From IMG/VR virus record IMGVR_UViG_3300042474_001367, positions 1 to 31,547 of that record: a DNA stretch of 31,547 nt; one strand, given 5' to 3'. Below, piece after piece: positions 1,841 to 26,507 of the stretch; positions within the stretch are counted from its first letter, which is position 1; each line of letters opens with the position of its first letter. The notes beneath the pieces are model-generated. The model worked only from the letters and a program-made list of their open reading frames with translations, searched no databases and was not told the origin of the DNA. This DNA is from a virus. Made by a program: the position numbers and the translations under genes.

Positions 1841-2157
1841 ATCCCCTCCTTGATCGCTACTCGCACCCGCGTCTTGGCATCCTGCCACTCAAAGAAGTGC
1901 TCTTCCCCGAAGACTTCGGCTGTGCCATTCACGACATCAACCTGCATCTTCTCAAACTCACCTGTGCTATCGGGACTGGCGTAATACCTTGCGAAGGTTA
2001 TCGTCGCCCCATTCGTGTGAATCTGGTACCATTTCGCGTCTTCCAAATCAGACTTCCTCTCCGCCTCTTCCAATGACCTGCGAAGAGTGTGAATCTCTGG
2101 TAGCATCCAATCGCTGTTGCTAATTCCGTCGCCCACGATCAGCCTCCCATCTTCCAT
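1837..2157 (-). CDS. Hypothetical early protein, 106 aa
   Basis: Residues 20-45 form a charged probable helix or coiled coil (LRRSLEEAERKSDLEDAKW). The second half looks beta-rich, with FARYYAS, EKMQVDVV and a closing EEHFFEWQDAKTRVRVA segment. I recognise no family. ATG at 2157 is the likely start. A GTG six bases upstream (2163) is also in frame, and neither has a clear ribosome site, so the gene is probably translated by coupling to the overlapping membrane micro-protein upstream. The end is secure because the AAGGAGGGGATGTGA there serves as the ribosome site and GTGA start of the next gene. Confidence 0.65.
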   Translation of the reverse strand: MEDGRLIVGDGISNSDWMLPEIHTLRRSLEEAERKSDLEDAKWYQIHTNGATITFARYYASPDSTGEFEKMQVDVVNGTAEVFGEEHFFEWQDAKTRVRVAIKEGM

Positions 2158-2249
2158 AGCCACACCATCGTGTGGGCAATTAGGTACGCGAACCCTAGCA
2201 GGATGAAGAATTTCATCGCTGCTTCCAATACCAATCCAAGCATTCTCAT
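2139..2249 (-). CDS. Single-pass membrane micro-protein, 36 aa
   Basis: A 36-residue protein consisting mainly of one hydrophobic helix (about residues 4-32: LGLVLEAA, then FFILLGFAYLIA) ending in VWLWKMGG. It would span the inner membrane once. The start is ATG at 2249, with AGGGAAG about seven bases upstream. A second ATG two codons in is possible. A longer frame from 2387 would run through a GC-rich terminator-like region and encode an Arg-rich leader, so I reject it. Short phage membrane proteins of this type can be lysis regulators, superinfection-exclusion factors or holin partners, but nothing allows a choice. Confidence 0.55.
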   Translation of the reverse strand: MRMLGLVLEAAMKFFILLGFAYLIAHTMVWLWKMGG

Positions 2250-2277
2250 CTCAATCTTCCCTTTCTCCTGCGTGCGC

Positions 2278-2289
2278 GTGCGTACGCAC
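2278..2289. repeat. 12-bp palindrome with GCGTACGC core (left copy)
   Basis: GTGCGTACGCAC is a perfect palindrome inside a 22-base alternating purine-pyrimidine run (2269-2290). A sister palindrome with the same 8-bp core and one different pair on each side is at 3090-3101. The two copies bracket the 130-aa GC-rich gene and its leader, so they could be paired binding sites of one dimeric protein. They could also be by-products of a CG-rich alternating sequence. Confidence 0.4.
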
Positions 2290-2331
2290 AAAAAAGCACG
2301 CGTCCCCCACTGCCCGTGTGGGCAGCAGGGG
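2290..2331 (-). terminator. Terminator-like hairpin after the 130-aa gene
   Basis: Read leftward, CTGCCC/GGGCAG (2310-2315 with 2320-2325, GTGT loop) forms a 6-bp stem. An outer C-run/G-run pairing (2304-2308 with 2328-2331) extends it across a small internal loop. After eight bases comes a run of six T on the minus strand (2295-2290). This fits a Rho-independent terminator for the gene ending at 2359, although the T-run is further from the stem than usual. Leaky termination would give attenuation between that gene and the early block downstream. Confidence 0.5.
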
Positions 2332-2358
2332 ATCGCGTGTGTGCGTGCGCGGGCGCGA

Positions 2359-2751
2359 TTACTTGACCAACCCGTAGCGGCGGGCAATGCTCACGAGGTA
2401 TGGCGCGCTCGTGAACGCACTCGCGTCCTTCGGGCGAAGCACGATGTATCGCTCATCGCCTGCGCCATTCGTCGTGCGTGCGATTACTGCGCCGCTCTCC
2501 TTGCGCGTGCACGCGAAGGTGAGATCACCGATCACGACCGAGAAGGTCGGGTCGGTAGTCGCGCCTACGAGCGTGGGCGTTGCGCCCGCGAGCGAAGAGA
2601 ACTTCTTCGCCGCAGGGCTAGCCTTCGCACGCGCCTTCGGCTTGCTTGGCTTCGCGGGTGTTGCCGCGCCCGCCTGCGCGCGATCAGCCGCGATCGCAGC
2701 CGCGATCATCGCCTGAACCTGATCCAGCGTGAGTGCCTGTGGCTTGCTCAC
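2359..2751 (-). CDS. GC-rich hypothetical protein with Ala/Lys/Pro linker, 130 aa
   Basis: Start is GTG at 2751, five bases after GCAGGAGG, and reading begins MSKPQALTLDQVQAMI. Residues 8-25 form a probable helix, residues 30-55 are an Ala/Pro/Lys linker (KPSKPKARAKASPAAKK), and residues 60-130 form a compact, probably beta-rich domain with TFSVVIGDLTFACTRKE and a C-terminal YLVSIARRYGLVK. No family recognised. The basic linker would suit DNA or RNA contact (inference). GC content is far above the neighbouring genes (44 of 60 bases in block 2641-2700) and codons end mostly in G or C, suggesting a different origin. The gene is flanked by a structured leader and a terminator, so it may be its own transcription unit. 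Confidence 0.65.
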   Translation of the reverse strand: MSKPQALTLDQVQAMIAAAIAADRAQAGAATPAKPSKPKARAKASPAAKKFSSLAGATPTLVGATTDPTFSVVIGDLTFACTRKESGAVIARTTNGAGDERYIVLRPKDASAFTSAPYLVSIARRYGLVK

Positions 2752-2762
2752 AAAAACCTCCT

Positions 2763-2832
2763 GCCCCGCACGGGGGCATACGCCCCGCGCCACGCGGCGC
2801 GGGCGGCGGGTGGCACCCTGCACAGCGCAGGG
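2763..2832 (-). promoter_or_regulatory. Three stacked hairpins in the leader of the 130-aa gene
   Basis: Three consecutive perfect stems lie within 70 bases: 2816-2821 with 2827-2832 (CCCTGC/GCAGGG, 5-base loop); 2784-2791 with 2796-2803 (8 GC pairs, ACGC loop); and 2763-2767 with 2773-2777 (GCCCC/GGGGC). The last sits directly against the AGGAGG ribosome site of the gene starting at 2751. A transcript from the candidate promoter at 2851-2879 would contain all three. They could control translation, act as an attenuator or stabilise the RNA. No known riboswitch class is recognised. Confidence 0.45.
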
Positions 2833-2850
2833 AGCGTCGCCGTGAGGAGA

Positions 2851-2879
2851 AGATTGCCTGATCGGTTGCAGGCTGTCAA
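2851..2879 (-). promoter_or_regulatory. Candidate leftward promoter with perfect TTGACA box
   Basis: On the minus strand TTGACA (2879-2874) is followed after 17 bases by CAATCT (2856-2851), a poor -10 box. The -35 match and spacing are ideal for a housekeeping-type promoter. Transcription would begin near 2843, giving a leader of about 90 bases before the GTG at 2751. The weak -10 suggests activation or a non-standard sigma factor, or that the match is chance. Confidence 0.35.
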
Positions 2880-2973
2880 CCGCTGCTGCTAAGGCGCGTG
2901 GGACGGGCAGGCAAACACGCGCCTGCGCAGACGCGCGCGTGGGCGCACACACACGGGCGGCGGGCGTGCGAGA

Positions 2974-2991
2974 GGGCGGGAGGGAGGGGGG
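2974..2991 (+). other. G-quadruplex motif with one-base loops
   Basis: Four G-tracts of 3, 3, 3 and 6 bases are separated by single bases (C, A, A). This is the pattern of a very stable parallel G-quadruplex. It lies on the plus strand in non-coding sequence between the early and virion operons. It could stall replication or transcription, or mark an origin. Biological use is not shown by sequence alone. Confidence 0.5.
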
Positions 2992-3089
2992 TGATACCCC
3001 TGCTCTCCGCGCGTGGGAGGCTTATCAAACCTGCACTGCCCGCGCGTGCGAAGGTCGGAATTTCGTGGGGGGCTCCCCGCCGAGCCTTT

Positions 3090-3101
3090 GCGCGTACGCG
3101 C
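3090..3101. repeat. 12-bp palindrome with GCGTACGC core (right copy)
   Basis: GCGCGTACGCGC is a perfect palindrome in non-coding sequence. It shares its 8-bp core with the palindrome at 2278-2289, on the other side of the 130-aa gene. It could be an operator half of a pair, or simply a product of the CG-rich alternating sequence. Confidence 0.4.
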
Positions 3102-3234
3102 CGCGGGGGGGTACACCCAATCTCCGCACTGAACACCCCCTCTGATAAGGCGGCGCGGGTCTTTCAGGCTGCTAAATTCGGGTTATCAAGCCCCCTCCCA
3201 GCAGGGTCCCCTGGTCGCCTTCCCTGTCTTTGGA

Positions 3235-3253
3235 GGGACCCATTAAGGGTCCC
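3235..3253. promoter_or_regulatory. GGGACCC/GGGTCCC hairpin
   Basis: A perfect 7-bp inverted repeat, GGGACCC (3235-3241) and GGGTCCC (3247-3253), with loop ATTAA. The same heptamer occurs at 3204-3210, and GGACCC at 3287-3292. No T-run follows on either strand, so it is more likely a protein-binding site or RNA structure than a standard terminator. Confidence 0.4.
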
Positions 3254-3329
3254 CCAGAACACACACAACAGTAGTAGTACGTTTGCGGACCCTTATATAT
3301 GTCTTAACCAAATCTTAATAATCAATAGA

Positions 3330-3358
3330 CCTAAACTGGGCGCGGCGTGGTGTATAAT
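3330..3358 (+). promoter_or_regulatory. Candidate promoter of the virion operon
   Basis: TATAAT at 3353-3358 is a perfect -10 hexamer in AT-rich sequence, directly preceded by TG. The sequence 17 bases upstream (near 3330) has no convincing -35 box, as expected for a late promoter needing a phage activator or a modified polymerase. Transcription would start near 3365, about 63 bases before the first gene, whose ribosome site GGAAGGA lies at 3417-3423. Confidence 0.4.
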
Positions 3359-3367
3359 TGACCCATA

Positions 3368-3385
3368 ATTCTGGTAAATCAGAAT
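3368..3385 (+). promoter_or_regulatory. Small inverted repeat at the predicted transcript start
   Basis: ATTCTG (3368-3373) and CAGAAT (3380-3385) form a perfect 6-bp inverted repeat with loop GTAAAT. It sits 10 bases after the TATAAT box, where an operator or a 5' stabilising hairpin would be expected. It is short enough to be chance. Confidence 0.3.
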
Positions 3386-3427
3386 ATATAAAAAACTAAC
3401 GAAGACCCTTAAAGGCGGAAGGAATAA

Positions 3428-4816: not shown

Positions 4817-4934
4817 CAAAAAGGTCCTTCGTGAGAAAGATCTTGAAATTGAAGAAGAATACGTAAAGTTTAAGAAAATCCCTAGGAAGAAAAAGGAACC
4901 TTCCGAAGAAAAGAAAGGCAAATACAATGGCTGA
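4791..4934 (+). CDS. Highly charged linking micro-protein, 47 aa
   Basis: A 47-codon gene that overlaps the end of the upstream gene by 26 bases and the start of the downstream gene by eight. It fills the only gap (4817-4926) in this part of the operon. The protein is almost entirely Lys, Glu, Asp and Arg with a few hydrophobic residues (VKFKKIPRKKKEPSEEKKGK), and is probably helical or disordered. The ribosome site is not obvious and translation may be coupled. The alternative is that the gap is just a spacer with a chance frame, but an intact frame spanning exactly from gene to gene argues for a gene. Confidence 0.5.
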   Translation: MPHLSHSADKKVLREKDLEIEEEYVKFKKIPRKKKEPSEEKKGKYNG

Positions 4935-6882
4935 TGAAGTAGTAAAGCGTAAGATTCAAGTACTAACTGCTGGCGGAGCACCACTACGCACGCACACCGC
5001 TATTTTTGTCCGCAAGGAAGGAAATAGGGTACGTTTTATTACTGAAGAGGGCAAGACATTTGACCTTCCTGCTGATGAAGTACAGATTAGCGATAAACTT
5101 GAGAGCAAGAAGTTTAGCAAGACCAAGAAGGGCGGCGCAGCAGCACCGTCAACCGAGGCTCCACGCGTCGGACGAGAGAATACGCTCCGAGGAATGACAG
5201 GAAATCAGCGAACGTTTGACGCTGGCAACGCAATGCAGCGCCGAATCTACCGATCACTGAAGAAGACGACAGGATGGTACAGCCTTTCGCTTGCAGAGCG
5301 CGTTCAAGCCAACATTTCCGCACTTCGCAAGGCTGGCATCTCTAACGATTTGATTCCAGGAGTTGTTGACCAGATGAGCCGCCAGTATTTCAGCGGCAAG
5401 GGCGCAACTACAAGCAAGACTGGTACGGCTGCAATCGCAGTTTTGGAAAAGTTTGCTGGTGGAAAGATCACTGGTGGCGTACGCCGCGTCATTGAGCGCG
5501 GAGTAAGCGCACGACGCGCAATGGGCGCTGGCAATGTGTACACCGAAGAGGGGAAAGTTGAGAAGCGAACAGGCAAGGGCAGGCGAGAGTTGATCCGAAC
5601 TGGATCACGTGGCGGCACAAGCCGAGTTCCAACCCCAACAGGCGGATATAGCGCCAAGGGTAAGGAAGTTACGACGGCTCGCGCGAAGGCTCTTGAGGCT
5701 GCAAGGCGCGTGAGCGGTGGGCTTGAGCAGATTGACGAGATGCCAGGATCCCCGCGACGATTTGGTAAAGCAAAGTTTAAGGGCGCACCTGAGGGCGCTG
5801 TTGAAAAGAAACTCGTTATTCAAGAAAACCGATTTATGGGTAAAGACGAAATGGGTAACGACATTCTCAAGCCGTTTAAGAAGACTGTCTCTCTTCTTTA
5901 CAAGGATGGGAAGTACTTTATTCCGAAGGGAAACGGATACTCTGCTATGGACACAAGGGAGACGAAGGAGTTCTTCCTTAAGGGCGGTAAGGTTGAGCGT
6001 AGGAACGTTTCCAAATCATCACCAACCGAAGGCAAGGGCAAGGCTACGACCAAGTTCCTTCTGCGCGAATCCCGAATTGGTGGTCGCATGAACGACGAGC
6101 GGCTTGTAACGATTGCTAAGGAGTTGATTAATCAGGCTCGCAGAACTGGCAACATTCCAAAGGAAGGCGGCTACACCGCGCTCCTTATGAATCAACCACA
6201 GTTCAAGGGAATGGACTCTAAGGACTTGCGCAGAATCATTGCAATTGCCAAGGCTGATGTCAAGTCAGCAAAGGTTGAGCGAAAAGAGAAGAAGCGCGGA
6301 CCTCGCGAGAAGACTGGCGGCAAGACAAAACTTAGCCTCACTGGTCGCGACATTACTGGCGAAGGAACTCCACGAACCCAAAAGGGCAAGGAGACTCGTG
6401 CTGCAATTGAGCGAGCAGAGCAGGATATTGTCCGAGAAGATCTTGAGAAGAAGGCTACCATCCGCAAGGAGCGAACCCGCGCACGTATCCGAGGCGAGAA
6501 GCCAACGGGCGCAATGCGTCCAGCCAAGCCGATCAGCATTACTGCTGCGCGCAGGATGGAGCAGGAAATTGCCGAAGGAAAGAAGCCAAGTAAGGTATTC
6601 ACAAAGCGAACGCCAAAGGCAATTGTCAAGTCCGCTGCAGCAGAAGGAAAGGTCAAGATTAAGGAGCCGCGACTTAACGCTCGCGACAAGGAAGCGCTTG
6701 CTCTCCTTGAGAAACTCCCAGACCGAACGTCCCGAATCAAGGCTGCAGACATGATGAAGATTAGTACAAAGGTCCGAACAAAGGCAATGAGCAAGAACCT
6801 GCTCAGCCTTGCTGGTATGTATGGTGCAAACTACATCCTCTCGCAACTTGGCGAAGAGGCAAGAAAGAAGGGGAAGCGTTAA
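4927..6882 (+). CDS. Very basic probable internal virion protein, 651 aa
   Basis: Residues 7-55 look like a small beta-barrel ([31 protein letters not shown]). The rest is Lys/Arg-rich, largely helical and low in complexity, especially residues 430-620, which alternate basic helices and Gly/Pro linkers. The C-terminus (about 620-651) is a hydrophobic helix, [20 protein letters not shown], followed by ARKKGKR. A very similar ending closes the proteins at 12343-12837 and 12839-13372. No enzyme motif is visible. The charge suggests binding to packaged DNA and the C-terminal helix suggests membrane or portal contact (inference). ATG at 4927 follows AAAGG, and the TAA overlaps the ATG of the fibre gene as TAATG. 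Confidence 0.75.
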
Positions 6883-9800
6883 TGGCTAAGTGGACATCTT
6901 CTCAGCGCGTAAACATTTCTTGGAACGGGTACCACTTTGTTGGAGATGCTGGCACAGAGTTTGGCGTAGACGACTACCTCATTGAGGAACTAGCCGCCGA
7001 GTTTGCTCCAGTCGTTCCTGGCTTTACCGTCACGGAATACTTCCATACCCACGGCAGCGGAACGCATACCCACACGGATTACGTAGAGACTGCAGGCGAC
7101 ACGATGACTGGTGCGCTTATTGTCAACGCACCAATCACCTCGTCCGATGAGGTTAACGCAAATTACTTTGTCGCACAGAACGCTGGCAGCGAGGCTTCGT
7201 TCCGTGTCACTGCAACGGGAAGCCATGCAAAGATTCAGACCAACGATTATGCCGAGGTAAAGGATGGCGAGGCGTTTGCCGATATCCACGCAAAGAACAT
7301 TGAACTTGATTCAAGCATCACCCTAACCGATGCGACCATCACGAGGACTGGCGCTAACGCTCTTGCGATTAGCGGAGACCTAAACGTTGTTGGGGCGCTG
7401 ACGCAAGACGGTGATCAAGTGTCGCTCGTCGGACACACACATACGTACCTTGGTACGGAGTGGCTCACGGGCGAAGGCGTGCCCAGCAACACCCTTGGGA
7501 AGAACACTGACTTCTACATTGACACCGTTTCTTCCCTGTACTACAAGAAGGTCGGCGGCGTGTGGGTGCTTCAGGGAGACCTTGAGGGCGCTCAGGGTCC
7601 TGCTGGTCCTGCTGGTGCTGCTGGCGCTACAGGAGCAACTGGTCCTGCTGGTGCCACTGGTGCCACTGGCGCTACTGGTGCAACTGGAGCGACTGGAGCA
7701 ACTGGTCCTAAGGGAGATACTGGAGACACTGGTCCAGCGGGTCCTGCTGGTGAAGGACTCAGCATTAAGGGTACTGTTTCAACCGTCGGCGCGTTGCCGT
7801 CAACTGGAAACACCGAGGCTGATGCATACATTGTAACTGCAGACGGACATCTTTATGTTTGGAGTGGAACGGCATGGATTGACGTTGGACCAATTGTCGG
7901 TCCACAGGGCGAGACTGGGGAGACTGGTCCAGCAGGTCCACAGGGAGAAACTGGTCCAGCGGGACCTCAGGGAGAAGTTGGACCAACTGGTCCGCAGGGC
8001 GAGATTGGTCTTACTGGCGCAACTGGTCCACAGGGAGAGACTGGTCCAGCAGGCGCGGATGCCCTCTGGACCTTTACTGGTGCGTATAGCGGTGGCGCAT
8101 CTTATGCTGTAGGAGACGTTGCTACGTACAATGGACGAACGTGGTATCGCATTAATTCAAATGGCGGAAACGTCGGAGACACTCCAGCCGAAGGAACATT
8201 CTGGACGCTAATTGCCGAAAAGGGAGATACTGGAGATACTGGTCCGACAGGTGCTACTGGCGCTCAAGGTGAGACTGGTGCTACTGGCGCTCAGGGTCCA
8301 AGTGGCGTTGTTACCGTTACTGCCCCAATCCTTAATACTGGGACAAGTAGCGCGGCAGATCTAAGCCTTGACATCGGGACTGGCGCTACGCAAGTAGCCG
8401 CTGGAGATCACGTCCATAGCGGCGCTGGTACGGCTACGGTTGTTCAAGAGTATGTTAAGAACGACACCGAGGCTAAGGTCAAGGGAGACGTTGTATACAT
8501 CTCTAGCGCAGACGGTACAAATCCAATCGTTTCGTTTGCAGATGCTGATAGCGAATCCACATCAAGCAAGACTCTTGGTCTTCTTGCTCAGGACCTTGGA
8601 ACCAATGCACACGGCTATGTAATCACTCAGGGTATTCTTTCTGGCATTGATACAAGCGCAGCATCCACCGAGGGAGTTTCTGTTTGGCTGTCATCAACCG
8701 CTGGCAAGTTGACATTTGGTGCACCACCTGCAAAGCCAGCCCACAGCGTATACCTTGGCGTAGTTACAAAGAAGAATGCCAGCACTGGTGAGGTGTTTGT
8801 AAACGTCCAGAACGGCTACGAACTTGAAGAGTTGCACAATGTCAACATTGCCTCAACTCCTGCAGATAAGGATTTGCTCTACTGGGATAACAGCACCTCT
8901 TTCTACAAGATGGGTAGTGCTGCGACAATCGGTCTTTCAACCACAAGCCATACGCATGCGGGCGGAGGGGGAGATGTTGTTGGACCATCATCGGCTCTTG
9001 ACAACACATTGCCACGTTTTGATACGACAACTGGGAAACTAATTCAGGGGAGCAGCGTTTTTATTAACGATTCTGATGTTGCGTTTATGCCTGCGGCTAC
9101 AGCAACAAAGGTAATTACAGTTGCTCAATCCGCATCCCCATCCGTTAATATGTCAAGTGGGGATCTGTTTGTTTACGATAGCCTTACGCCATCTCTTGTC
9201 TGGACTCAAACAGCAGACTTCTCAAGCAACACAACTGGAACACTTACATTCCCATCTGGCGCTCAGCAAGGGGACTATGTTGTTCTATATGTAGCATCTG
9301 ACGGAAGTGCTCCGACAATGACATCTACTGGGTGGACACTGCTTCAATCTGGAAACCCAAGCACGCATCCATTTGCATGCTGGCAGAAGCAGATGGGCGC
9401 TACGCCAGATACTGATGTGACTGTTGGTGGAATTAGTACGGCGAGCGCAGCGATTGCTCGTGCATACCGAGGAACTACGGGAGCAGGGGCAAGCGCAGGT
9501 ACGTCCTCAACAACTGGCATGCCTGATGCGCCGACGGTAACGCCAACAGCAAATGGATCAATTGTCATTGCTTTCGGCAGTCTTGATGACGATGCTGGCA
9601 TTACATCGTCAGCGCCCGCTACGTACGGAAATTATGCTGCAATTGAGTCCTCTGCAAGTAAAGTCACTCTTTATAGCGCTGACAAATTTAACGTATCTAC
9701 TTCAGAAAACCCAGCCGCCTTTGCTGGAGGTGGTAGTGACGAATGGGGAGCAGTGACAGTTTCAATGTCTCCAGCAACAAAAGGAACATTCTCATTTACA

Positions 9801-9998
9801 AGCACGCCGACGCAATCTGTTGGGGCATACGGAACAGTTGATGGATCTGTTAAAATTTTCCACATTAAAGGAACAATTGGTGTTCACTTCCCAGCATCTG
9901 TTTCATACATTGGTGGAACCCCCTCTGCGTTTCCAATTCTCGCAACTCTCGTGACATCGGACGGCGGAGCAACATGGGTATGCACATATGCGTCGTAG
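6882..9998 (+). CDS. Tail fibre with collagen-like repeats and carbohydrate-binding module, 1038 aa
   Basis: A modular fibre. Residues 54-66 contain [13 protein letters not shown], a His-rich motif common in phage fibres, followed by a repeat-like region to about 230. Three collagen-like Gly-X-Y stretches lie at about 236-291, 340-393 and 446-474, rich in GPAG, GATG and GPQGE. Between the first two is a module containing [19 protein letters not shown], frequent in phage fibres. Between the last two (395-446) is a CBM5/12-like chitin-type module ([17 protein letters not shown]). Residues 475-720 hold a fibre shaft with another HTH motif, and residues 750-1038 form beta-sandwich tip domains. 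Collagen-like stretches give trimeric rods. Role: host recognition and attachment. Confidence 0.88.
7623..7703 (+). repeat. 9-bp tandem repeats encoding Gly-Ala-Thr
   Basis: Nine consecutive 9-base units, mostly of the form GGN-GCN-ACT, with one Gly-Pro-Ala unit at 7641-7649, encode the first collagen-like stretch of the fibre. Third positions vary between units, so the array has been stable long enough to diverge. Repeats of this kind can gain or lose units by slippage and change fibre length. Confidence 0.8.
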
Positions 9999-10854
9999 TC
10001 CAGCGATTAGCGGTCAAAGAAGGCTTAAATGGGTTTACAGTTCGTATAGCCTTTTGGTAAGTTCAAGCACGCATCAAATTAATTTAGATACTTCTAGAGC
10101 GCACAGGATTGTTGTTATTAATTACGCAACAGCAAATGGAACAACCACTACGCCAGACTCGGTTGTAATGGACGATCTTATTCCTACGGTTACTAACGGA
10201 ACATATACTGATGTATTTGGCATGTCATATACAGATAACGCTGGGACCGAAGGAACTGGTCTTGTAATATCAATTTTTGATGTAAGTGCTGGATCTACAG
10301 TATTTGAAGTTCAGGGTCAGACAGCAGAAGATTATTATGGATCAATGCTTCTTGTATTTTACGATTCTGGAGGAACAGATGCGCTTGAGTCAAAGTCATT
10401 TACATCCTCAAGAGACGACCAGACCGACTACAGTTACGATGCAAATTACACGAGTATAAAGTTCTGGGGAATTAACGAATCAAGTACACTTGCTCTACAC
10501 GAACAGAACGTTACTGGCGCAACAATTACTGGATTGTCACCATCTGCTCAAGCGCTAATCGTTCTATATCACGGTTATGGTAATAATTATGCTGCAGCAA
10601 GTGCTGATGTTGAGCACAGCGATTCAAACGAAGGATTTTGTATTCTACGAAAAACTGCTGGTGAGATAAATACAAAAGTAACTCCAGTGTTTAAAATAAA
10701 AGTAGACGCTGCAAATCCAGAAGGGCAGGGAACTTCTTCATGGGCTGGATTTAATGTATATAGCGGAACGCAATTTGGTAGCACCTCAGATCTTTATTTA
10801 AGCACAAACACTGGATTTTCCCAGGGGGATATACTAGGCGCACTTATATTTTAG
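9988..10854 (+). CDS. Second receptor-binding or fibre-tip protein, up to 288 aa
   Basis: The protein is rich in Thr, Ser, Gly and alternating hydrophobics with few charges, typical of beta-sandwich fibre tips. Examples are [26 protein letters not shown] and [13 protein letters not shown]. It directly follows the fibre and precedes a tail assembly chaperone, so host binding is the likely role. ATG at 9988 overlaps the fibre stop by 11 bases but has no good ribosome site. An AAAGAAGG at 10018-10025 precedes an out-of-frame ATG that stops after six codons, and an in-frame TTG (near 10051) is another option, so the start is uncertain. The sequence is about 40% GC against about 50% around it, with AT-rich codons, suggesting recent acquisition. 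Confidence 0.7.
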
Positions 10855-10862
10855 GAGGAGTT

Positions 10863-11315
10863 ATGGAAAAATATGTTTTTGTAAATGGTCAAGATGTCGT
10901 AAAGTATCCAGTCTCAACACAAGATCTTATTGATATTATTGGCGTAGAGGCTACATCTGTTCAGCAGAAAATTGACGCTGGGATTCACAAAGTTTTCCCA
11001 AGTCCAAAAGGTTCTGACTGGAAAAAGACTTACGTGGAAAAGAATCCTCGCTGGGTAGGAGACTCGTGGGTTGAGGTATGGGAAGAGCGGGATGCTACCC
11101 CAGAGGAACTAGAAGAGCGCGCTAGTGCAAAATGGGAAATTATCCGACGATATCGTACCGAACTTCTTGCCGACACAGACTGGACACAGTTTGTTGATGT
11201 TCCTCTAAGCGTTGAAAAAAAGCAGGAGTTTGCTGATTACCGACAAGCCCTACGCGACATTACGGATCAGCCAGATCCATTTGACATCTGGTTCCCAGAG
11301 GTCCCAAATGCCTAA
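10863..11315 (+). CDS. Phage tail assembly chaperone (Phage_tail_APC family), 150 aa
   Basis: Residues 91-148 match the family signature: W-x-x-I-R-x-x-R-x-x-L-L, then TDWTQFVDVPL, then YRQALRDIT and a closing P-x-DIWFPEVP. Such proteins are found next to tail fibre genes and help fibres or tail components fold or assemble. They may not remain in the particle. The N-terminal 70 residues are less conserved and probably contact the fibre. Start is ATG at 10863 after AGGAGG, a strong site. The last codons overlap the ATG of the peptidase gene. The position after two fibre genes fits the assignment well. Confidence 0.85.
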   Translation: MEKYVFVNGQDVVKYPVSTQDLIDIIGVEATSVQQKIDAGIHKVFPSPKGSDWKKTYVEKNPRWVGDSWVEVWEERDATPEELEERASAKWEIIRRYRTELLADTDWTQFVDVPLSVEKKQEFADYRQALRDITDQPDPFDIWFPEVPNA

Positions 11316-11877
11316 ACTAAAGATCCGATCTCAACTTCCTCATGTTGAGAAGGGCGGCGTACTAGATGACTGCGGACCATCGTCTGCTGCATGCGCAACG
11401 TCGTGGGTTCTTGAAAAAGACATTACGGCAAAGCAGGGAATTGACGCGAAGGTCAAGGCAACTGGTCGTCCAGACAAGCCAGGAGTTGCAGATAATGCGA
11501 CATCAATGGCAGAAATAATTAAGATTGCTAAGGAGTTGGGGGCAAATGGTCGCTGGGCAAGAGACTGGGACGACGTTGTTAGTAGCCTTAAGAAAGGCGC
11601 TGCAATTGTCATCAACGTTCAGGCTGCAAGGTTCTACCCACCACAGGCAATCAGCGCATGGCACAAGCGGTTTGTTGGTCGGCACGCTGGTGCTACCTAT
11701 GGGCACATGGCTGCTGCGGTGTGGGATAAGGAGTTTGGATTTCAGTTTGCTGACCCGACTTTCTCAGGACTTAAGGCAGAGAAGTACGCAGTCACAGTGA
11801 CAGAAAAGGAACTAAAGGCAATTGCATCAAGCAAGGGGGATGCTCCGCACAGCCGATGCATCATCATCAAGGCGTGA
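11308..11877 (+). CDS. C39-like cysteine peptidase, 189 aa
   Basis: A papain-like peptidase core is visible. Cys22 lies in DDCGPSSAACA, the nucleophile motif of C39-type peptidases. His133 lies in YGHMAAAVW, and Asp149 in FQFADPTFSG completes the probable triad. There is no signal peptide, membrane segment or cell-wall-binding domain. I start at ATG 11308, which overlaps the chaperone stop by eight bases. Related domains in phages occur as the catalytic part of endolysins and in virion-associated enzymes, and C39 enzymes elsewhere cleave double-glycine leaders. Here the gene lies between tail and packaging genes, so it could be the lysin, a virion-borne wall peptidase or a processing protease. 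The sequence does not decide. Confidence 0.75.
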   Translation: MPKLKIRSQLPHVEKGGVLDDCGPSSAACATSWVLEKDITAKQGIDAKVKATGRPDKPGVADNATSMAEIIKIAKELGANGRWARDWDDVVSSLKKGAAIVINVQAARFYPPQAISAWHKRFVGRHAGATYGHMAAAVWDKEFGFQFADPTFSGLKAEKYAVTVTEKELKAIASSKGDAPHSRCIIIKA

Positions 11878-12350
11878 CTGAACTAGCCCCTGTATTGACC
11901 AACTGCTCTGCCTGCCGTAGCCCATTTGTTGAGGCGATCAACAAGAAGATGAAGGAAGGCGTTGCGGACGTAAAGATCAGCGAATGGCTCAAGGAGAACG
12001 GTGGCTACATCAGCCGAGTGAGTCTTGGGAAGCACAAGCGCGACCACCTTGTAGAGCGCCACGAAGCGGCTAGGATCGCCGCCAAGAAGGTCCTAGAGAA
12101 GCAGGCAAAGACGATCAAGGCAAAAGGCGACCTCGCCTCGCTAGTGGCAAATCAGGTGTATAATATGGTGGAAGACGGGGCACTGATGCCGACGCTGGCA
12201 GAGGGGCTTCGTGCTCAGGAAATGATTGATCGTCGGCAAGAGAAGGGCGCAGACCGAGATCTTACGATCATGCTGGCTCAGGTTCTGGGCGGTGCAATGA
12301 TTGTTGAAGGAACAGCGGAAGAAGTTGAACAGGAGCAGATTGATGCGTAA
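11874..12350 (+). CDS. Probable small terminase subunit, 158 aa
   Basis: The N-terminal region has C11-S-A-C14 and, after about 40 residues containing a helix-turn-helix-like segment (DVKISEWLKENGGYISRVSLGKH), H54-x3-H58, which together could bind zinc. The remainder is helical: a Lys/Ala-rich helix (68-85), then two more to residue 145, and an acidic tail. Small size, a DNA-binding-like N-terminus, a helical oligomerisation region and position upstream of the large terminase fit a small terminase, which recognises the packaging site. Sequence similarity to a known family was not recognised, and five genes intervene before the large subunit. GTG at 11874 forms a GTGA overlap. ATG at 11856 is an alternative. 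Confidence 0.55.
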   Translation: MTELAPVLTNCSACRSPFVEAINKKMKEGVADVKISEWLKENGGYISRVSLGKHKRDHLVERHEAARIAAKKVLEKQAKTIKAKGDLASLVANQVYNMVEDGALMPTLAEGLRAQEMIDRRQEKGADRDLTIMLAQVLGGAMIVEGTAEEVEQEQIDA

Positions 12351-12837
12351 GAAGAAGGGTAGCAAATACCTACGAAAGGCTACGGGGCTTAAGGCTTCTC
12401 AAATGATCCGTCAGGGTAACTTCCGTGCCGCTGCCCGAATGATCGGGCACTCTGTTGACCCAGAAAATCCAGTTGCTGCTGGTAAGAAGAAGATGTCTCC
12501 GAAGTTGCTATCAAAGGCTGCTGCAATTTATAAAGATCAAGTTAAGAATAAGAAGAGCCTTGGTCGCGCCGCCGCAAAGGAAATTAGTTTTGCTCGTGGA
12601 AACGCACGACTAATTAGGGTTACCGACTCGCTCCCAACAGTTGCAAATAAAATGCCAGTGTTTAAGGACGTTAAAGTAGTGGCATCAAAGAATATTGCAA
12701 AGTCCCTAAAGAATGCTTCCGCCTTTATTGAAGGCGGTAAGGTCGCCCGCACTGCGGCTCGTGGTGCAGGTGTATTTGGTATTACTGCTATGGTGGCTAG
12801 CCACTTGGCAGGAGAAGTAAGAAAGAAGAAGGGTTGA
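12343..12837 (+). CDS. Basic protein with hydrophobic C-terminus ending in ExRKK, 164 aa
   Basis: Strongly basic, with RKKKGSKYLRKATGLK at the start and Lys-rich helices throughout. Residues 136-156 are a small-residue hydrophobic helix (TAARGAGVFGITAMVASHLA), followed by GEVRKKKG. That ending resembles those of the proteins at 4927-6882 and 12839-13372. Start is ATG at 12343 with AGGAG seven bases upstream, overlapping the previous stop as ATGCGTAA. A longer TTG form from 12301 lacks a ribosome site and is rejected. The protein has no recognised family. The charge and C-terminal helix suggest a DNA-associated internal protein that can contact a membrane or portal (inference). Confidence 0.7.
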   Translation: MRKKKGSKYLRKATGLKASQMIRQGNFRAAARMIGHSVDPENPVAAGKKKMSPKLLSKAAAIYKDQVKNKKSLGRAAAKEISFARGNARLIRVTDSLPTVANKMPVFKDVKVVASKNIAKSLKNASAFIEGGKVARTAARGAGVFGITAMVASHLAGEVRKKKG

Positions 12838-12838
12838 T

Positions 12839-13372
12839 ATGGCTGGAAAGAAGAAGTTCGCTCCACGCAAACTCAAGTCCCCGAAGCGAGAGGTCGGAGT
12901 CAATGCTGCCCTTCTTGCTGGCGGTGGTGCTGCGGGTACTGTAATCGGAGCAAAGATCGGTGGAGCACGTGGTCGTGCTGGTCTCCGAAGTCGTCTTGTT
13001 GATGCAACGCGTCAGGCAAAGTTTGCATATGACACCGATATGGGAGTTATTACATCGGGCAAGGATAAGGGCTGGTCACGAGCAGAAGTCAACAAGGCTG
13101 ATACTGCTGTAAGCCGACTTGCAACAAAGGAAGCAAAGCGATACAACTACAAGAGCCAATCATACAAGGGTATTGTTGGTTCAAATGCAGACATTAAGAG
13201 CGGTAGGTATCCTAACGCTAACGCTTTTGCACGGAAGAACACACGAGATGCAATGCGTGGCGCTGCATCAAGCCGTGGCGCACGACGTGGTGCCGCAGTC
13301 GGTGGTCTGAGTGGCGTTGCGTTGTCTGCGCTTGCGCAGGCTGTTGCGCGAGAACTTCGTAAGAAGCGATAA
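12839..13372 (+). CDS. Basic glycine-zipper protein with two hydrophobic segments, 177 aa
   Basis: After a Lys/Arg-rich start (residues 1-18) comes a hydrophobic glycine-zipper segment, VNAALLAGGGAAGTVIGAKI (21-40). The middle is basic and soluble-looking. Residues 150-170 form a second hydrophobic segment, GAAVGGLSGVALSALAQAVA, followed by RELRKKR. This final tail matches those of two other proteins in the window. The two segments with close GxxxG-type spacing could form a helical hairpin in a membrane. The gene begins two bases after the TGA of its neighbour, to which it may be distantly related in layout. Likely an internal or ejected virion protein (inference). No database family is recognised. 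Confidence 0.7.
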   Translation: MAGKKKFAPRKLKSPKREVGVNAALLAGGGAAGTVIGAKIGGARGRAGLRSRLVDATRQAKFAYDTDMGVITSGKDKGWSRAEVNKADTAVSRLATKEAKRYNYKSQSYKGIVGSNADIKSGRYPNANAFARKNTRDAMRGAASSRGARRGAAVGGLSGVALSALAQAVARELRKKR

Positions 13373-13383
13373 GGAGAAATCCA

Positions 13384-13785
13384 ATGACGGAGAGGGATAG
13401 GGTTCGTGATTACCTTGGAAGAATCAAGGACGACATGAACCTTCGGCAATGGACAATTAAGGTGTCAGATGATCTGCCCCCTGATGACTCTTGGGCTGAC
13501 GTTGAGGTAAGCCAGAATCTCTGGACTGCCACAGTACGGATCAGCAATGACTTCTTTAAGGAGTCGCCAGAGCATCAGAGGGAGATCTTGGCACATGAAC
13601 TTTCGCATGTTCACTATGGGTCTTTGGAGCGCCTCGTTGAGTCGCTTGATAAGATCTTGGGCGATCAAGCCTATAAAATCCTAGAGCACCTTTGGGATAT
13701 TGAATCGGAGCGCGCAGCGGACTCTATCGCAGTCCCTCTCGGTAGGTCCCTGCCGCTTCCTAACTTTAAGGGTGGGAAAAGATGA
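13384..13785 (+). CDS. Minimal HExxH zinc metallopeptidase, 133 aa
   Basis: Residues 69-77, LAHELSHVH, contain the zinc-binding HExxH signature with H71, E72 and H75. About 34 residues later ERAAD (E109-D113) supplies the third ligand and the helix typical of gluzincin-type enzymes such as the M48 group. The N-terminal 60 residues form a small beta region ending in an aromatic strand (LWTATVRIS) next to the active-site helix. At 133 residues it is near the minimum for such a fold, without a propeptide, signal or membrane segment, so it would act in the cytoplasm or the particle. ATG at 13384 follows AAGGAG. The substrate is unknown, with scaffold or another virion protein possible. Confidence 0.75.
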   Translation: MTERDRVRDYLGRIKDDMNLRQWTIKVSDDLPPDDSWADVEVSQNLWTATVRISNDFFKESPEHQREILAHELSHVHYGSLERLVESLDKILGDQAYKILEHLWDIESERAADSIAVPLGRSLPLPNFKGGKR

Positions 13786-13979
13786 GTGTACGAAAACTAG
13801 TTAACCCGATGAAGCAAGAAAAGAAGCCGCTTCAGAATATTGATAAGTGGAACCCTCCTACAAAGAAGGACCCTATTAAGATTCCACGTGCAACAATTAC
13901 TGACAACTATATTTCTGTCCCAGATCAGTACATCCCTGAGGAGCCACCTACGGTGAGAACTCGGAGGAAGAATGCCTAA
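13782..13979 (+). CDS. Small Pro/Lys-rich protein, 65 aa
   Basis: ATG at 13782 overlaps the metallopeptidase stop as ATGA, with GGTGGG upstream. The protein is rich in Pro, Lys and Asn (KKPLQNIDKWNPPTKKDPIK) and likely unstructured, with one beta-prone stretch TITDNYISVPDQYI and a basic end. No family or motif recognised. Tight overlaps on both sides support translation. It may be a partner or linker peptide of a virion protein, but nothing specific is visible. Confidence 0.6.
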   Translation: MSVRKLVNPMKQEKKPLQNIDKWNPPTKKDPIKIPRATITDNYISVPDQYIPEEPPTVRTRRKNA

Positions 13980-14337
13980 GTCTCCCGCATGGACACGGAA
14001 GGCTGGGCAAAATCCTAAGGGCGGGCTAAACGAGCGAGGTCGCGCCTCTCTTCGTGCCGCTGGTCATAACATCAAGAAAGGCGTAACTGGCGCTGCCAAC
14101 ACCCCAGAGAAGATGCGACGAAAGGGTTCTTTCCTTTCTCGCATGTTTGGACCTGGGGCACCTGGAGCAATGGTCGCGCCAAACGGAAAGCCGACGCGAC
14201 GAGCGCTGAGCGCAGCCGCTTGGGGAGAGCCAGTGCCAACAAGCGACGCGGCTAGGGCACGGCTATATAAGAAGGGACAGGCACTACTTGCCAAGTATAA
14301 AAACACCAAGTCAAAACCTACTAAGCGATCTTCATAG
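13972..14337 (+). CDS. DUF6321-like basic protein, 121 aa
   Basis: The pattern AWTRKAGQNPKGGLNERGRAS at the N-terminus, then SFLSRMFG and PGAMVAPNGKPTRRALSAAAWGE, matches the layout of a small protein family found in many phages, recorded to my knowledge as DUF6321. Its biochemical role is not established. The remainder is Lys/Arg-rich. It begins inside the end of the preceding gene (overlap of eight bases) and its last 50 bases overlap the start of the large terminase gene. Its place immediately before the terminase is compatible with a packaging or DNA-binding role, but this is inference. Confidence 0.7.
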   Translation: MPKSPAWTRKAGQNPKGGLNERGRASLRAAGHNIKKGVTGAANTPEKMRRKGSFLSRMFGPGAPGAMVAPNGKPTRRALSAAAWGEPVPTSDAARARLYKKGQALLAKYKNTKSKPTKRSS

Positions 14338-15793
14338 GGGTCGTACTGACCCTTCGTTCTTCGCAGAGCGTTTTCTTGGGGTACAGATGAATGCTGGACA
14401 AAAGGTCTGGGCTGCTGGCTGCTCCGAGCGCGGAGAAAATGGATGGTCCCCTAAGTACCTCACGACAGTTGTGTCTGCTGGTAACCGTGCTGGCAAGACG
14501 CTTGCAATGGCGCTTGTCATTTTCCATTCTGCGTTCTACAAACTAGGGGTTCGTCCTCCGAAGCCCAATGACCCTGAAGACGCTCTCCGTTGGATCAACG
14601 CCCCCTACGACTGGTATCATGTCGGTATCCAGCAGGAAACTGCTGAACTCGTATTTAGGGAAATTTCCCTGATTACTCAAGGCATCCACCCTGCTCAACA
14701 GCGTAGAGGCTGTCCGCTGTTTGCCGACATCGGTCCAGTCGCGAACCTTGACAAGAAGTATCGCGGGGAGTACCTTTGGGTACAATTCCACAAGGCTGTC
14801 GGGGGAGCCAACATCCATTTTAGAACGACGCAAGACAAGGCGAAGGCTCTCCTCGGAAAGGACATGCACGGGATCTCCTTTGACGAGGCTGCGTTTGACC
14901 CCTATCTTATGACCATCTACCAAGAGGTGCTCAACCTCCGCCGTCTCTCCACTGGCGGGCAATTGCACTTCATCTCCACCCCGACGGAAGGGATCAACGA
15001 TTACGCCGATCTCTGGGAATTGGGGAATCCCGATAACCCAAACAAAGATCCCCAGTTCCTCTCGTTCAGGATGTCTACCCGTGACAATATTGGCTTCGGC
15101 TTGTCCCAAGAGAACTTTGACAATATCATCCGACAGCAGGTAGAACATCTTGTCCCCCAGAATATTGACGGATTTTTCATTGAAGCCCGTAATGCGTACT
15201 TTTCCTCTGAAATGGTGGACCAAGCCTTTGATCCAGTCGTTGAACAAGAGTTACCTCCAATCAAGAAACACCGCTATGTCCAGGGCTGCGATCCTGGGAT
15301 TTCCTCCGATGCTACGTGGTCTGTTACCCTAGACTATACCGACAAACACAACATGTTGGGGGTACGGGCTAGGCGTAGGAGTGGTCGTCAGACTATAATG
15401 AACGTCGTGAATATGCTGCGAGAAACCCATCTGTTGTATAATCAGGGCAGTGCCTGTACTACGATCCTAGATAGCACTGGGTTTGGGGGTAAGATGTTTG
15501 CCCAAGAACTTAGTATTATTAAGCCTCTAAGACAGGTAGACTTTTCTGGTACTAAGGCTAAGAAACTTGAGATCCTATCTGATCTTAAGGCTGTTATAGA
15601 TAAAGGAATGATTAAGTTTCCTAGATCTGGGATCTGGTTGGAACTGAGGAGACAGTTGCTGGGATATAAACTTGATGATCGCAAGTTGGAAACGGATGCT
15701 GTAATGGCACTCGCCGTAGCCGTGCGATATGCAACGCGGTCGGCAAGCGAGGCTGTTGAAGATCCGCAGTTTAATTACTTTGGGGTGGTGTGA
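14288..15793 (+). CDS. terL: Large terminase subunit
   Basis: Motor of DNA packaging, acting at the portal. Residues 63-71 (SAGNRAGKT) are the Walker A loop. About residues 194-203 (HGISFDEAAF) hold the Walker B strand with catalytic Glu. The nuclease domain begins near residue 333 (GCDPGISSDAT, first metal Asp), with ILDSTGFGG near 391 and DAVMALAVAVRYA near 468 giving the other acidic residues. At about 501 aa it has the usual length. The start is TTG at 14288, with AAGAAGGGA about ten bases upstream. The first in-frame ATG (14387) would cut off the conserved FFAERFLG region. GC falls from about 57% in the ATPase half to about 46% in the nuclease half. Confidence 0.92.
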   Translation: MPSIKTPSQNLLSDLHRGRTDPSFFAERFLGVQMNAGQKVWAAGCSERGENGWSPKYLTTVVSAGNRAGKTLAMALVIFHSAFYKLGVRPPKPNDPEDALRWINAPYDWYHVGIQQETAELVFREISLITQGIHPAQQRRGCPLFADIGPVANLDKKYRGEYLWVQFHKAVGGANIHFRTTQDKAKALLGKDMHGISFDEAAFDPYLMTIYQEVLNLRRLSTGGQLHFISTPTEGINDYADLWELGNPDNPNKDPQFLSFRMSTRDNIGFGLSQENFDNIIRQQVEHLVPQNIDGFFIEARNAYFSSEMVDQAFDPVVEQELPPIKKHRYVQGCDPGISSDATWSVTLDYTDKHNMLGVRARRRSGRQTIMNVVNMLRETHLLYNQGSACTTILDSTGFGGKMFAQELSIIKPLRQVDFSGTKAKKLEILSDLKAVIDKGMIKFPRSGIWLELRRQLLGYKLDDRKLETDAVMALAVAVRYATRSASEAVEDPQFNYFGVV

Positions 15794-17865
15794 TGGCAAA
15801 GGCTAAGGGCGTACCAAGTCTAGTAGAAAATGGACGATCAGTTGCTGGTCAGGTAACCACTGACCCAAATGTTTTTGATACGGTACGAAGAGGCGCTGCT
15901 GGTACAAACGTAATCTCTAATGCAACAAAGAAGTACTTTGAAAGCAAACTGCCTCCTGCATACAAGGCAAGTTCCGAAGCACTAAAGAAGCGTGCTGCTC
16001 TTTCTGGGGACAACGACATGTATCGCGTGGCAGCAAAGTTTACAGAGATCCTTGAGCGGAAGTCCTCCAGTCAGTCAGAGGCTGACCGACGACGCGGCAT
16101 GTTCCGACGATTTGATAACTTGTTCCATGCAAACACAATGACTGTTGGTGGTGCGGATCACTGGGCTGACGATCCCAGCGCTCGGCTCGGTGGTCGCGCT
16201 CACGTCTCCGTCAACGCTCACGCTTCGTACGTTACAATCCCAGCATCGCTGCAGGCAGTGCGCCCAGTTATTAACTACGTCCCGACTGGAACCGAAAAAG
16301 AAGACCGATCAATTGCAGCCAACCGCGAGAAGTTGTTCTTCCGATGGTGGGAAGAGGCAGAGTTGGATCTTGTCATGGAAGACGCTGCGTTGTTTAAGAG
16401 TCTTTACGGAGACACCGCTGCAAAGATCTATTGGGATCCAGTCCGCAAGTTGCCAAAGGTTCACGTCATCTCATCGCCAGAAAACCTTTACCTTGGCTAC
16501 GGCGTAAGCGACTACACGCGACTAGACTGGGCGCTTTATACATACGGGATCTCGCCACTTGCTGCTGCAGAAGAGTTCGGTGTTGATGTAATCCCAGCGA
16601 AGGAAGGCGATATCTTCTATCCATACGTTACTAAGGGGACGCATGACGATCCTCTTGGCACTTTGTACCGCGACTCGTTTGAGCGTAACTTCATGCGACG
16701 GCAGACTGACTACGAGCGACTTCAAGTTGAAGTCTATGACTATTGGTACAAGGAGCCACAGGGCAAGGGCAAGGCTCCTCTTGTTAAGAACTGCGTTTAC
16801 GTTGGCACGCAACTTATTAGCGAAACCGAACATCCAGAATACGACGGGGAGATCCCGTACGTAATCCTGACCAACAGCCGAATTCCTGGCAGCCCATACG
16901 GGAAGCCAGAACTTTACGATGTTGAGCAACTCCTCCGCGAGAAGGACGAGCGCATCACGAATCAGGCGCAGTTTATTCATCAGGTCGTTGGTGGTCAGAT
17001 GTTCCAGTTGATTGGACAGGATGCCCCAGAGGAAGTCCCTGCCAATGCTATTCCAAAGCCAGGTCGTATTGCAAGCCCAGGTGCTGGCAATCGCATTGAG
17101 CCAATTCAGCCGTTTATCCCACAGATGCAGATTGAAGACTATAACCGCCGACTTGATCGCGAGTTGACTGTTATCTCTGGTCTTAACGATCTACTCCTTG
17201 GCGTTGCCCCGTCGGGCGTTCTTGGATCTAGCCGAGCAATTGCTTCACTTATTGCAAACTACGAGCAGCGCATTGCGCCAAAGCGAAAGTTGTTCTATCA
17301 GTGGCTTAAGAATGTTTGGCGACTTTCATGCAAGGTATGGGAGAATAAGAGCGACGAGGTTAAGATTATCTTTGACGGTCAGTACCGCATTGAAATTACT
17401 CCACCAGAGTTGACCCCTCGCGATACACTTGAACTTGCAAGCACTGCAATTAACCTTGTGCAAAATCGCATCTGGTCGGCAGAGCGCGCAATGGATCGCG
17501 TGGGCGTGGAAGATCCTCAGGGCGAGAAGGATATTATCCGCGACGAACAGACAGATGCTACAATCAATCCTGCTGCAGTTGCAACAATGGCTCAGGTCAT
17601 TGCTCAGTTCCAGCAGATGGGTGTCACCCCTCCACAGGGAGCGCAGCAACAGGGTCAGGCTGGCATGGAGTCAGCAATGAACGCTATGCGAACGCAGAAC
17701 CCGTCGCAGCAATTGATTGAGGGACAAAACGATGAAGACCTAAATGCTCAGGGTATGGCTGAGGCTCAGCCGTCCAATGCTGCTGGGTTTGCGGAAAGCC
17801 CAGAGCAGTTGGCTCTGATGGAGCAGCAGGCGCAGCAAGCGCCTATGGGAGGCTTGAATGGCTGA
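15793..17865 (+). CDS. Portal protein, 690 aa
   Basis: Dodecameric ring at the capsid vertex through which DNA passes. The central region has portal-like features: FRRFDNLFHANTM, a wing rich in beta strands, then a long segment with IPGSPYGKPELYDVEQLLREK (about residues 356-376). A tunnel/clip-like region with LNDLLLGVAPSGVLGSSRAIASL follows near 465-485. The last 90 residues are Gln/Met/Ala-rich and disordered (QQQGQAG, EQQAQQAP), an extension often seen in portals. It directly follows the large terminase with a TGATG junction. I use ATG 15793, although GTG 15790 is also in frame. Position, size and pattern agree. No single signature residue proves it. Confidence 0.85.
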   Translation: MAKAKGVPSLVENGRSVAGQVTTDPNVFDTVRRGAAGTNVISNATKKYFESKLPPAYKASSEALKKRAALSGDNDMYRVAAKFTEILERKSSSQSEADRRRGMFRRFDNLFHANTMTVGGADHWADDPSARLGGRAHVSVNAHASYVTIPASLQAVRPVINYVPTGTEKEDRSIAANREKLFFRWWEEAELDLVMEDAALFKSLYGDTAAKIYWDPVRKLPKVHVISSPENLYLGYGVSDYTRLDWALYTYGISPLAAAEEFGVDVIPAKEGDIFYPYVTKGTHDDPLGTLYRDSFERNFMRRQTDYERLQVEVYDYWYKEPQGKGKAPLVKNCVYVGTQLISETEHPEYDGEIPYVILTNSRIPGSPYGKPELYDVEQLLREKDERITNQAQFIHQVVGGQMFQLIGQDAPEEVPANAIPKPGRIASPGAGNRIEPIQPFIPQMQIEDYNRRLDRELTVISGLNDLLLGVAPSGVLGSSRAIASLIANYEQRIAPKRKLFYQWLKNVWRLSCKVWENKSDEVKIIFDGQYRIEITPPELTPRDTLELASTAINLVQNRIWSAERAMDRVGVEDPQGEKDIIRDEQTDATINPAAVATMAQVIAQFQQMGVTPPQGAQQQGQAGMESAMNAMRTQNPSQQLIEGQNDEDLNAQGMAEAQPSNAAGFAESPEQLALMEQQAQQAPMGGLNG

Positions 17866-25559: not shown

Positions 25560-26507
25560 ATGGCTATTACTAGTACGTCAACGACGGGGTTTTCTGATCT
25601 AGTTCAGGAACTCGTCCTCGCTAAGGCGCAGGAAGAACTGCGCGGGCGACTCGTGCACGTGATGCCAGGTCACTACGTTCCTGGGCGTTTTGTGAAGGGT
25701 ACTAACACCATTCGCTTCGCTCGCTACGCAGACCTCGGCGCGGACACGACTCCGCTCAATGAAGGTGAATCACCTGTTGATCAGGCGCTCAGCATCGGCT
25801 CGGATTACTTTACTGCTACGCAGTACGGTAAGACGATTGCCGTGACTGACCTTGCTCAGTTGGACTCACCTCACGACCTCATCTCAATCGCCTCGGAGCG
25901 CATTGCGCGACAGGCTGCTGAGACGATGGATCTTGTTGTTAAGGATGTTCTTGCCGCAGGCACGAACGTCAAGTACGCAGGCGATGCAACTTCCCGCGCA
26001 ACTGTTGCGCAGGGCGATGTCATCACGGGCGCTCTCGTGAAGAAGATGGCGGCAAGCCTCAAGGCTGCCAACGTCCCAACCTTTGCGGACGGCTTCTACC
26101 GCTGCGTTATCCACCCGTTCCAGGAGTACGATCTGATTACGGATACGACTGCTAACGGCTGGATTGAATCCACCAAGTACGTGGACAACCTCCCGCTTCT
26201 GAACGGCGAGATCGGGCGCTTTGCTGGCGTTCGCTTCCTCGTTTCGTCCAATGCGAAGGTGTTCGCAGAGGCTGGTGCTGATGACGCAGATGTCTACAGC
26301 GCTCACTTCTTCGGTCCAGATTCGTACACGGTTGGCGATTCGCAGACCCTTCAGGCGTACTTCGTGTCGCCTGGTGGCGATCACAGTGACCCGCTTGCGC
26401 AGCGCGCAATCGCTGGTTACAAGATGCGCTTCGGCGCGAAGTTGCTTGACCTCACGGGTGCACGCTACGTGCGCCTTGAGACGGGCGCGACGCTCAGCGG
26501 CGAGTAA
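25560..26507 (+). CDS. Major capsid protein, N4-gp56-like (HK97 fold), 315 aa
   Basis: The main shell protein. The pattern resembles the N4 gp56 capsid family: GTNTIRFARYADLGADTTPL then EGESP, QYGKTIAVTDLAQL (about residues 86-99) and ARQAAETMDLVVKDVLAAGTNV (about 115-135), followed by a beta-rich domain with RFLVSSNAKVF and a closing KLLDLTGARYVRLE. Length is ordinary for the family. ATG at 25560 follows AAGGAGA. GC is about 58-60% in the blocks counted, clearly above neighbouring genes, with strong use of C-ending codons, as expected of the most highly expressed gene. A GC hairpin follows at 26519-26546. No maturation cleavage site can be inferred. Confidence 0.9.
   Translation: MAITSTSTTGFSDLVQELVLAKAQEELRGRLVHVMPGHYVPGRFVKGTNTIRFARYADLGADTTPLNEGESPVDQALSIGSDYFTATQYGKTIAVTDLAQLDSPHDLISIASERIARQAAETMDLVVKDVLAAGTNVKYAGDATSRATVAQGDVITGALVKKMAASLKAANVPTFADGFYRCVIHPFQEYDLITDTTANGWIESTKYVDNLPLLNGEIGRFAGVRFLVSSNAKVFAEAGADDADVYSAHFFGPDSYTVGDSQTLQAYFVSPGGDHSDPLAQRAIAGYKMRFGAKLLDLTGARYVRLETGATLSGE

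Follow-up and report, generated by a model that had tools for sequence, protein, structure and literature searches.

Three basic proteins of the late gene block

The window, by which we mean the whole 31,547-nucleotide stretch of viral DNA analysed here, encodes three strongly basic proteins, which we name B1, B2 and B3 (open reading frames 4927-6882, 12343-12837 and 12839-13372). The reading frames, their coordinates and their C-terminal sequences are precisely as a first-pass annotation of the window gave them, and the strong basicity it ascribed to all three is borne out by net charges of +75 for B1, about +35 for B2 and +28 for B3. An alternative start of B2 is possible, at TTG 12301 in place of ATG 12343. 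The three proteins and the neighbouring features discussed below are as follows.

4927-6882, + strand: B1, basic protein of 651 aa without known family (open reading frame and profile searches)
6772-6879, + strand: C-terminal tag of B1, its last 36 aa (the B1-tail family profile finds B2 tails)
11311-11877, + strand: C39-like peptidase, probable endolysin (PF13529, E 0.002)
12343-12837, + strand: B2, basic protein of 164 aa (open reading frame; the model of a relative is a long helical hairpin)
12727-12834, + strand: C-terminal tag of B2, IEGGKVARTAARGAGVFGITAMVASHLAGEVRKKKG (tail alignments, profile searches)
12839-13372, + strand: B3, basic protein of 177 aa with a fast-evolving middle (open reading frame, alignments)
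12902-12967, + strand: N-terminal apolar Gly-rich segment of B3, retained in most relatives (alignment)
13262-13369, + strand: C-terminal tag of B3, AASSRGARRGAAVGGLSGVALSALAQAVARELRKKR, a separate motif of similar look (alignments, profiles)
13384-13785, + strand: HExxH metallopeptidase-like protein (LAHELSHVHY), immediately 3' of B3 (weak Pfam SprT/M78 matches only)
13972-14337, + strand: DUF6321 basic protein, untagged (PF19846, 3.4e-21)
14288-15793, + strand: terminase large subunit, the anchor for relatives (phrog_2, 8.6e-16)
25560-26507, + strand: major capsid protein with relatives in Pagevirus-type phages (profile and similarity matches)
30922-31179, + strand: hemolysin/XhlA-like probable holin of 85 aa (phrog_1193, 5.9e-5)

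PHROG and Pfam profile searches with B1-B3 of the window and with their alignments gave no significant match, and among their relatives only isolated weak matches were seen. A search of named phages with TerL, portal and B1-B3 returned no match. In a PDB profile search B3 matched prion proteins (best E 0.025), a hit that we rejected as the product of Ala/Gly-rich composition.

The head genes recognised are terminase, portal, coat and adaptor, and the coat protein matches those of Pageviruses and other phages. This podophage-type set, together with the lack of any recognised tape-measure or tail-tube gene, suggests a short tail; the lineage is of freshwater type and probably short-tailed. No prohead protease was recognised among the proteins searched with PHROG and Pfam. 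The gene at 13384-13785 carries an HExxH...ExxxD pattern, and the DUF6321 protein directly ahead of the terminase is near-universal in this phage group; by PHROG matches, the DUF6321 domain is also found at the C-terminal end of long phage proteins. Between portal and scaffold (17858-24963), an unusual position, lie two giant proteins of 912 and 1455 aa without known family, which are candidates for internal or ejected proteins. At 2000-3400, where the leftward and rightward gene blocks meet, GC content is 64-69% compared with about 50%. This GC-rich island contains short repeats, both inverted and direct, and is also present in a relative (L094:1500-2500). It has no match in Rfam and may be an origin or control region.

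Conserved tails on diverging bodies

Used as queries, B2 and B3 found only near-identical contigs plus one diverged contig, L005, whose B3 retains the first 15 and last 15-30 residues of the window protein but not its middle. B1, or its last 76 aa, gave no match as a direct query against viral contigs. With the terminase as an anchor, 22 loci of 74-99% identity were obtained and then a further, more distant set; we refer to the nearer set of these terminase-anchored relatives as the inner clade. Matches of the B3 tail alignment to viral contigs are confined to members of this lineage, and a genome collection scanned with TerL for a prophage or host yielded none.

The B1 slot, upstream of the tail fibre, holds basic proteins of 578-723 aa in L012, L017, L019-L021, L023 and G003. 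The B2/B3 slot holds two basic proteins ahead of the terminase, with a small zinc-ribbon-like protein on one side and the HExxH protein on the other; basic proteins occupy all three slots throughout the inner clade. In the late block of three near-full genomes, G001-G003 (35.7, 40.0 and 39.9 kb), the strongly basic tagged proteins number exactly three per genome, and the other late-block match of a simple tail screen of these genomes is an adaptor protein of weak charge whose end is amphipathic. None of the 47 CDS of Pagevirus Pony has such a basic tailed form. The head genes are shared by more distant relatives (64-68% terminase identity), which are without B2, B3 and the tag, so that this type of head does not always come with the tag. 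Several outer-clade contigs (e.g. L032:2797-3760) have other genes in the B2/B3 slot; one of these begins MMTWVYVGGTFD and may resemble a nucleotidyltransferase.

Across 20-odd related contigs, gene-order-matched proteins retain a tail of 30-36 residues, in which an apolar Ala/Gly-rich helix is followed by Lys/Arg, whereas their bodies have diverged past recognition. Where 3' ends are intact, the tail is retained by B1 in 8 contigs (6 distinct) and by B2 and B3 in all (11 and 15 distinct, respectively). A search of the relatives for tail-less homologues thus found the tail in every gene-order-matched protein with an intact 3' end, a result that is partly circular because homologues were recognised partly by gene position.

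In each of the three families the last 36 aa are the most similar part, and upstream of them similarity drops to background. In the window, L008, L023 and L019, the body of B2 is dissimilar to all other B2 bodies, except that the window matches its near relative L005, and yet most tails of B2 proteins with dissimilar bodies align. L015 encodes two adjacent proteins of the B3 type whose bodies are unrelated but whose B3 tails are nearly identical (z 13). Rough dN/dS estimates between the window and L005, for which dS is near saturation, are 0.06 for the tail and 0.18 for the body of B2, and 0.15 and 0.40 for those of B3. In the same comparison dN is about 0.1-0.16 for neighbouring proteins against 0.54 for the B3 body, and both bodies, that of B2 and that of B3, evolve more rapidly than the genes around them, again with dS near saturation. 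The tag is conserved and is under purifying selection at the protein level.

When the B1-tail profile was searched against 787 ORFs, the best eight other matches were B2 C-termini, the top one at E 4.1e-7, six of them with E below 0.03 and the remaining two close to 1, and the B2-tail profile returned B1 first (E 1.8e-5). As these matches are reciprocal, the B1 and B2 tails demonstrably share one motif at the level of sequence profiles. The B3-tail profile returned neither B1 nor B2 from the 787 ORFs. Cross-family z scores of the last ~36 aa against column permutations are 16.8 for B1-B2, 8.3 for B2-B3 and 5.1 for B1-B3; windows 36 aa or more upstream have z mostly near zero, with a few scattered values of 3-5 in no consistent pattern. 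The pairwise scores of B1-B2 and B2-B3 beat shuffles that keep residue classes in place (0 of 200 as good), and that of B1-B3 is not above them (20 of 200). BLAST E-values between tails, computed without composition correction, were excluded from the evidence. Judged by these comparisons, the B3 tail is strongly conserved in its own family and is only a look-alike of the B1/B2 motif, similar to it in design. The common C-terminal address on separate proteins proposed by the first-pass annotation is well supported by the conserved tails, the variable bodies and the single motif of B1 and B2, but by profile it does not take in B3.

The B1/B2 motif is about K-x-x-A-[KR]-x-x-G-[VL]-[LF]-x-[IV]-A-x-[ML]-x-x-x-x-L-x-G-x-x-K-K and the B3 motif about R-G-A-x-x-G-[GA]-x-x-[GA]-A-x-x-x-x-[IL]-[AV]-Q-x-V-[AL]-x-E-[LMI]-x-K-K. 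The E-x-R-K-K ending initially read in all three proteins is that of the window and its closest relatives, whereas elsewhere the ends are E-[LMI]-[NRS]-K-K (B3) or G-x-x-K-K (B1/B2). The B1 tail of the window is among the most divergent B1 tails, and the B1-B2 link, clear at the family level, is weaker within the window alone (z 4.8). In L008 and L009, a single protein replaces the B2/B3 pair; its tail is B2-like, and the protein also matches the B3 profile in part (E 2.2e-8), making it a possible link.

A putative capsid-targeting tag and its alternatives

We tentatively favour the reading that variable internal proteins carry, in this tail, a C-terminal tag that targets them to the capsid, much as the N-terminal capsid targeting sequence (CTS) does in phage T4. 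The Ala/Gly-rich helix with its Lys/Arg end would dock onto some conserved part of the head during assembly, for which the scaffold, the coat interior or the inner core are candidates. Docking would carry B1 and B2, and probably B3 as well, into the prohead, and from there they would enter the host together with the DNA. We infer the presence of B1-B3 in the virion, the docking partner, the injection and the function of the bodies. In favour of a targeting tag are the one motif on B1 and B2, the unrelated bodies under a constant tail, the fixed positions in the late block and the podophage-type head genes; against it are the lack of a recognised prohead protease, the B3 tail that profiles do not join to the others, and the presence of the tag on only part of the phages with this head. 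Late position and gene order are compatible with encapsidation and do not prove it. If real, the tag would let candidates for injection be listed from their sequences alone across an uncultured lineage that comprises hundreds of related contigs, and for small phages of about 40 kb it would supply a loading peptide that can be put to the test.

Some of the more distant relatives, which form a sister lineage, instead encode basic proteins with different bodies and a common N-terminal M[GA]VD[KR]GYGSG, two per contig in L049, L067, L105 and L106 and one in L057, L071 and L075. Their positions include the following.

L049:931-2476, N-tagged basic proteins
L067:1407-3250, N-tagged basic proteins
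L105:709-2373, N-tagged basic proteins
L106:1855-3519, N-tagged basic proteins
L057:743-1006, N-tagged basic protein
L075:4281-5252, N-tagged basic protein

In L049 and L105/L106 the N-tagged pair flanks an HExxH metallopeptidase gene of the same type as the one after B3. The N-terminal tag is possibly a second version of the same tagging system, and the same design at the opposite protein end speaks for the tagging of variable cargo. A further-reaching proposal, which we regard as quite unlikely, is that swappable tagged basic proteins and a dedicated maturing metallopeptidase make up an internal-protein cargo module, with which two sister lineages would load fast-evolving proteins into the capsid, by different tags at opposite ends, for delivery into the host.

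Alternatively, B1-B3 could be minor structural proteins of the tail or portal vertex or of the inner core, the tail being an oligomerisation or docking element that packs them and no transferable address. B1 always stands directly before the tail-fibre gene and B2/B3 before the terminase, and helices rich in small residues pack tightly. AlphaFold predicts a helical hairpin with a poorly defined tail for a B2 relative, although the resemblance to internal virion/DNA transfer proteins is insignificant, and a fold search with this model gave no significant match to a named ejection protein (P22, T7, N4). For B3, a helix is predicted at 152-176 with modest confidence (pLDDT 66-67 in the last 20 residues), in a model that is poor overall (pLDDT 54) and unfit for fold search. 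However, a structural role of this kind sits poorly with neighbouring proteins that are well conserved while the bodies of B1-B3 are not, and with the same tail on the unrelated, side-by-side proteins of L015. We consider it rather unlikely.

Unlikely, too, is a membrane helix, with which the tail would insert in or lie on the host membrane and B1-B3 would be ejected channel-forming or lysis-associated proteins. An apolar stretch of ~18 aa does lie between basic residues, there is a further apolar, Gly-rich segment in B3, and B2/B3 are near the gene for the C39-type probable endolysin. The Gly/Ala-rich hydrophobic stretch of the earlier description is indeed present before the ending, but on the octanol scale it is weakly hydrophobic and poorer than most holin controls: the best 19-aa windows are mostly +1 to +6.5 in B2/B3 and near or below zero in some B1, whereas two holin-like proteins from the wider lineage reach -4.1 and -7.6. 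This comparison does not discriminate sharply, since the 85-aa holin candidate of the window itself reaches only +0.7. That this XhlA-like probable holin is encoded elsewhere suggests that B2 and B3 are not needed as holins; moreover, basic residues on both flanks are unlike a simple tail anchor, and a 651-aa protein bearing the same tag is no holin. With most tails unfavourable against these controls, the suggestion that they are membrane-inserting ends of ejected proteins is weakened, and a protein-docking helix appears to fit the tail better than a membrane anchor.

It is very unlikely that the adjacent HExxH metallopeptidase reads or removes the tail as a signal for maturation or degradation. 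The gene directly follows a tagged protein in 23 of the 23 inner-clade contigs showing the junction, and in L049 and L105/L106 of the sister lineage its counterpart lies between the N-tagged proteins. The argument is one of gene neighbourhood, however, and in L084/L087 the metallopeptidase gene adjoins untagged genes. Metallopeptidases are not, to our knowledge, known as prohead proteases.

Finally, it is highly improbable that the tails are a by-product, with Lys/Arg ends from the overlapping Shine-Dalgarno sequence of the next gene and an Ala/Gly stretch from biased composition: the gene after B1 and B2 mostly starts 0-4 nt from the stop, so that purine-rich last codons must carry its ribosome site, but in most B3 relatives a gap of 8-17 nt contains a GGAGG-like site of its own and the protein still ends in ELNKK/ELRKKR, B3 ends use CGT/CGC/CGA and AAC codons that form no such site, B1-B2 and B2-B3 similarity exceeds that of class-preserving shuffles, and other genes with overlapping starts lack such ends. 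The Shine-Dalgarno sequence accounts for only some last residues, where it may add Lys or Gly; the motif core is unaffected, and there the by-product is largely refuted.

Comparison with known packaging signals

Packaging tags have been characterised experimentally in very few phages (T4 and P1, with those of giant phages inferred), and all those in the literature consulted are N-terminal. The T4 internal proteins IPI-III are small and basic, with a common N-terminal CTS and divergent mature parts (PMC9026906). They resemble the proteins described here as small basic proteins that vary between relatives and have a short terminal sequence in common (B1-B2, with B3 a look-alike only). However, the T4 CTS is N-terminal, needs about 10 residues and is removed by gp21, whereas the tag of the window lineage is C-terminal, about 30-36 residues long and without a recognised prohead protease, and no sequence similarity is claimed. 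We therefore do not class the tag as a CTS, since its position differs and its encapsidation and cleavage are at most putative.

In P1, the N-terminal 30 residues of DarB are a capsid targeting sequence (PMC9024508). There also a short terminal stretch brings an injected protein into the head, but from the N-terminal end. The propeptides of giant phages are inferred to target likewise (PMC5694885). With N-terminal signals known from T4 (PMC9026906) and P1 DarB (PMC9024508), the first-pass view that no phage signal of this form has been described stands in a narrower sense: our literature search found no description of a C-terminal tag common to several phage proteins.

The ejection proteins of P22 require scaffold to enter the particle (PMC8402733). 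P22/T7-type ejection proteins are held inside a short-tailed virion, as is proposed for B1-B3, but no similarity to B1-B3 was found. We know of no common terminal tag among them. Encapsulin cargo, by contrast, carries C-terminal loading peptides (PMC7355545). The tag described here is likened to these by design, not sequence: in encapsulins, too, a conserved C-terminal sequence is joined to unrelated cargo of an HK97-fold shell, although that shell is a cellular compartment.
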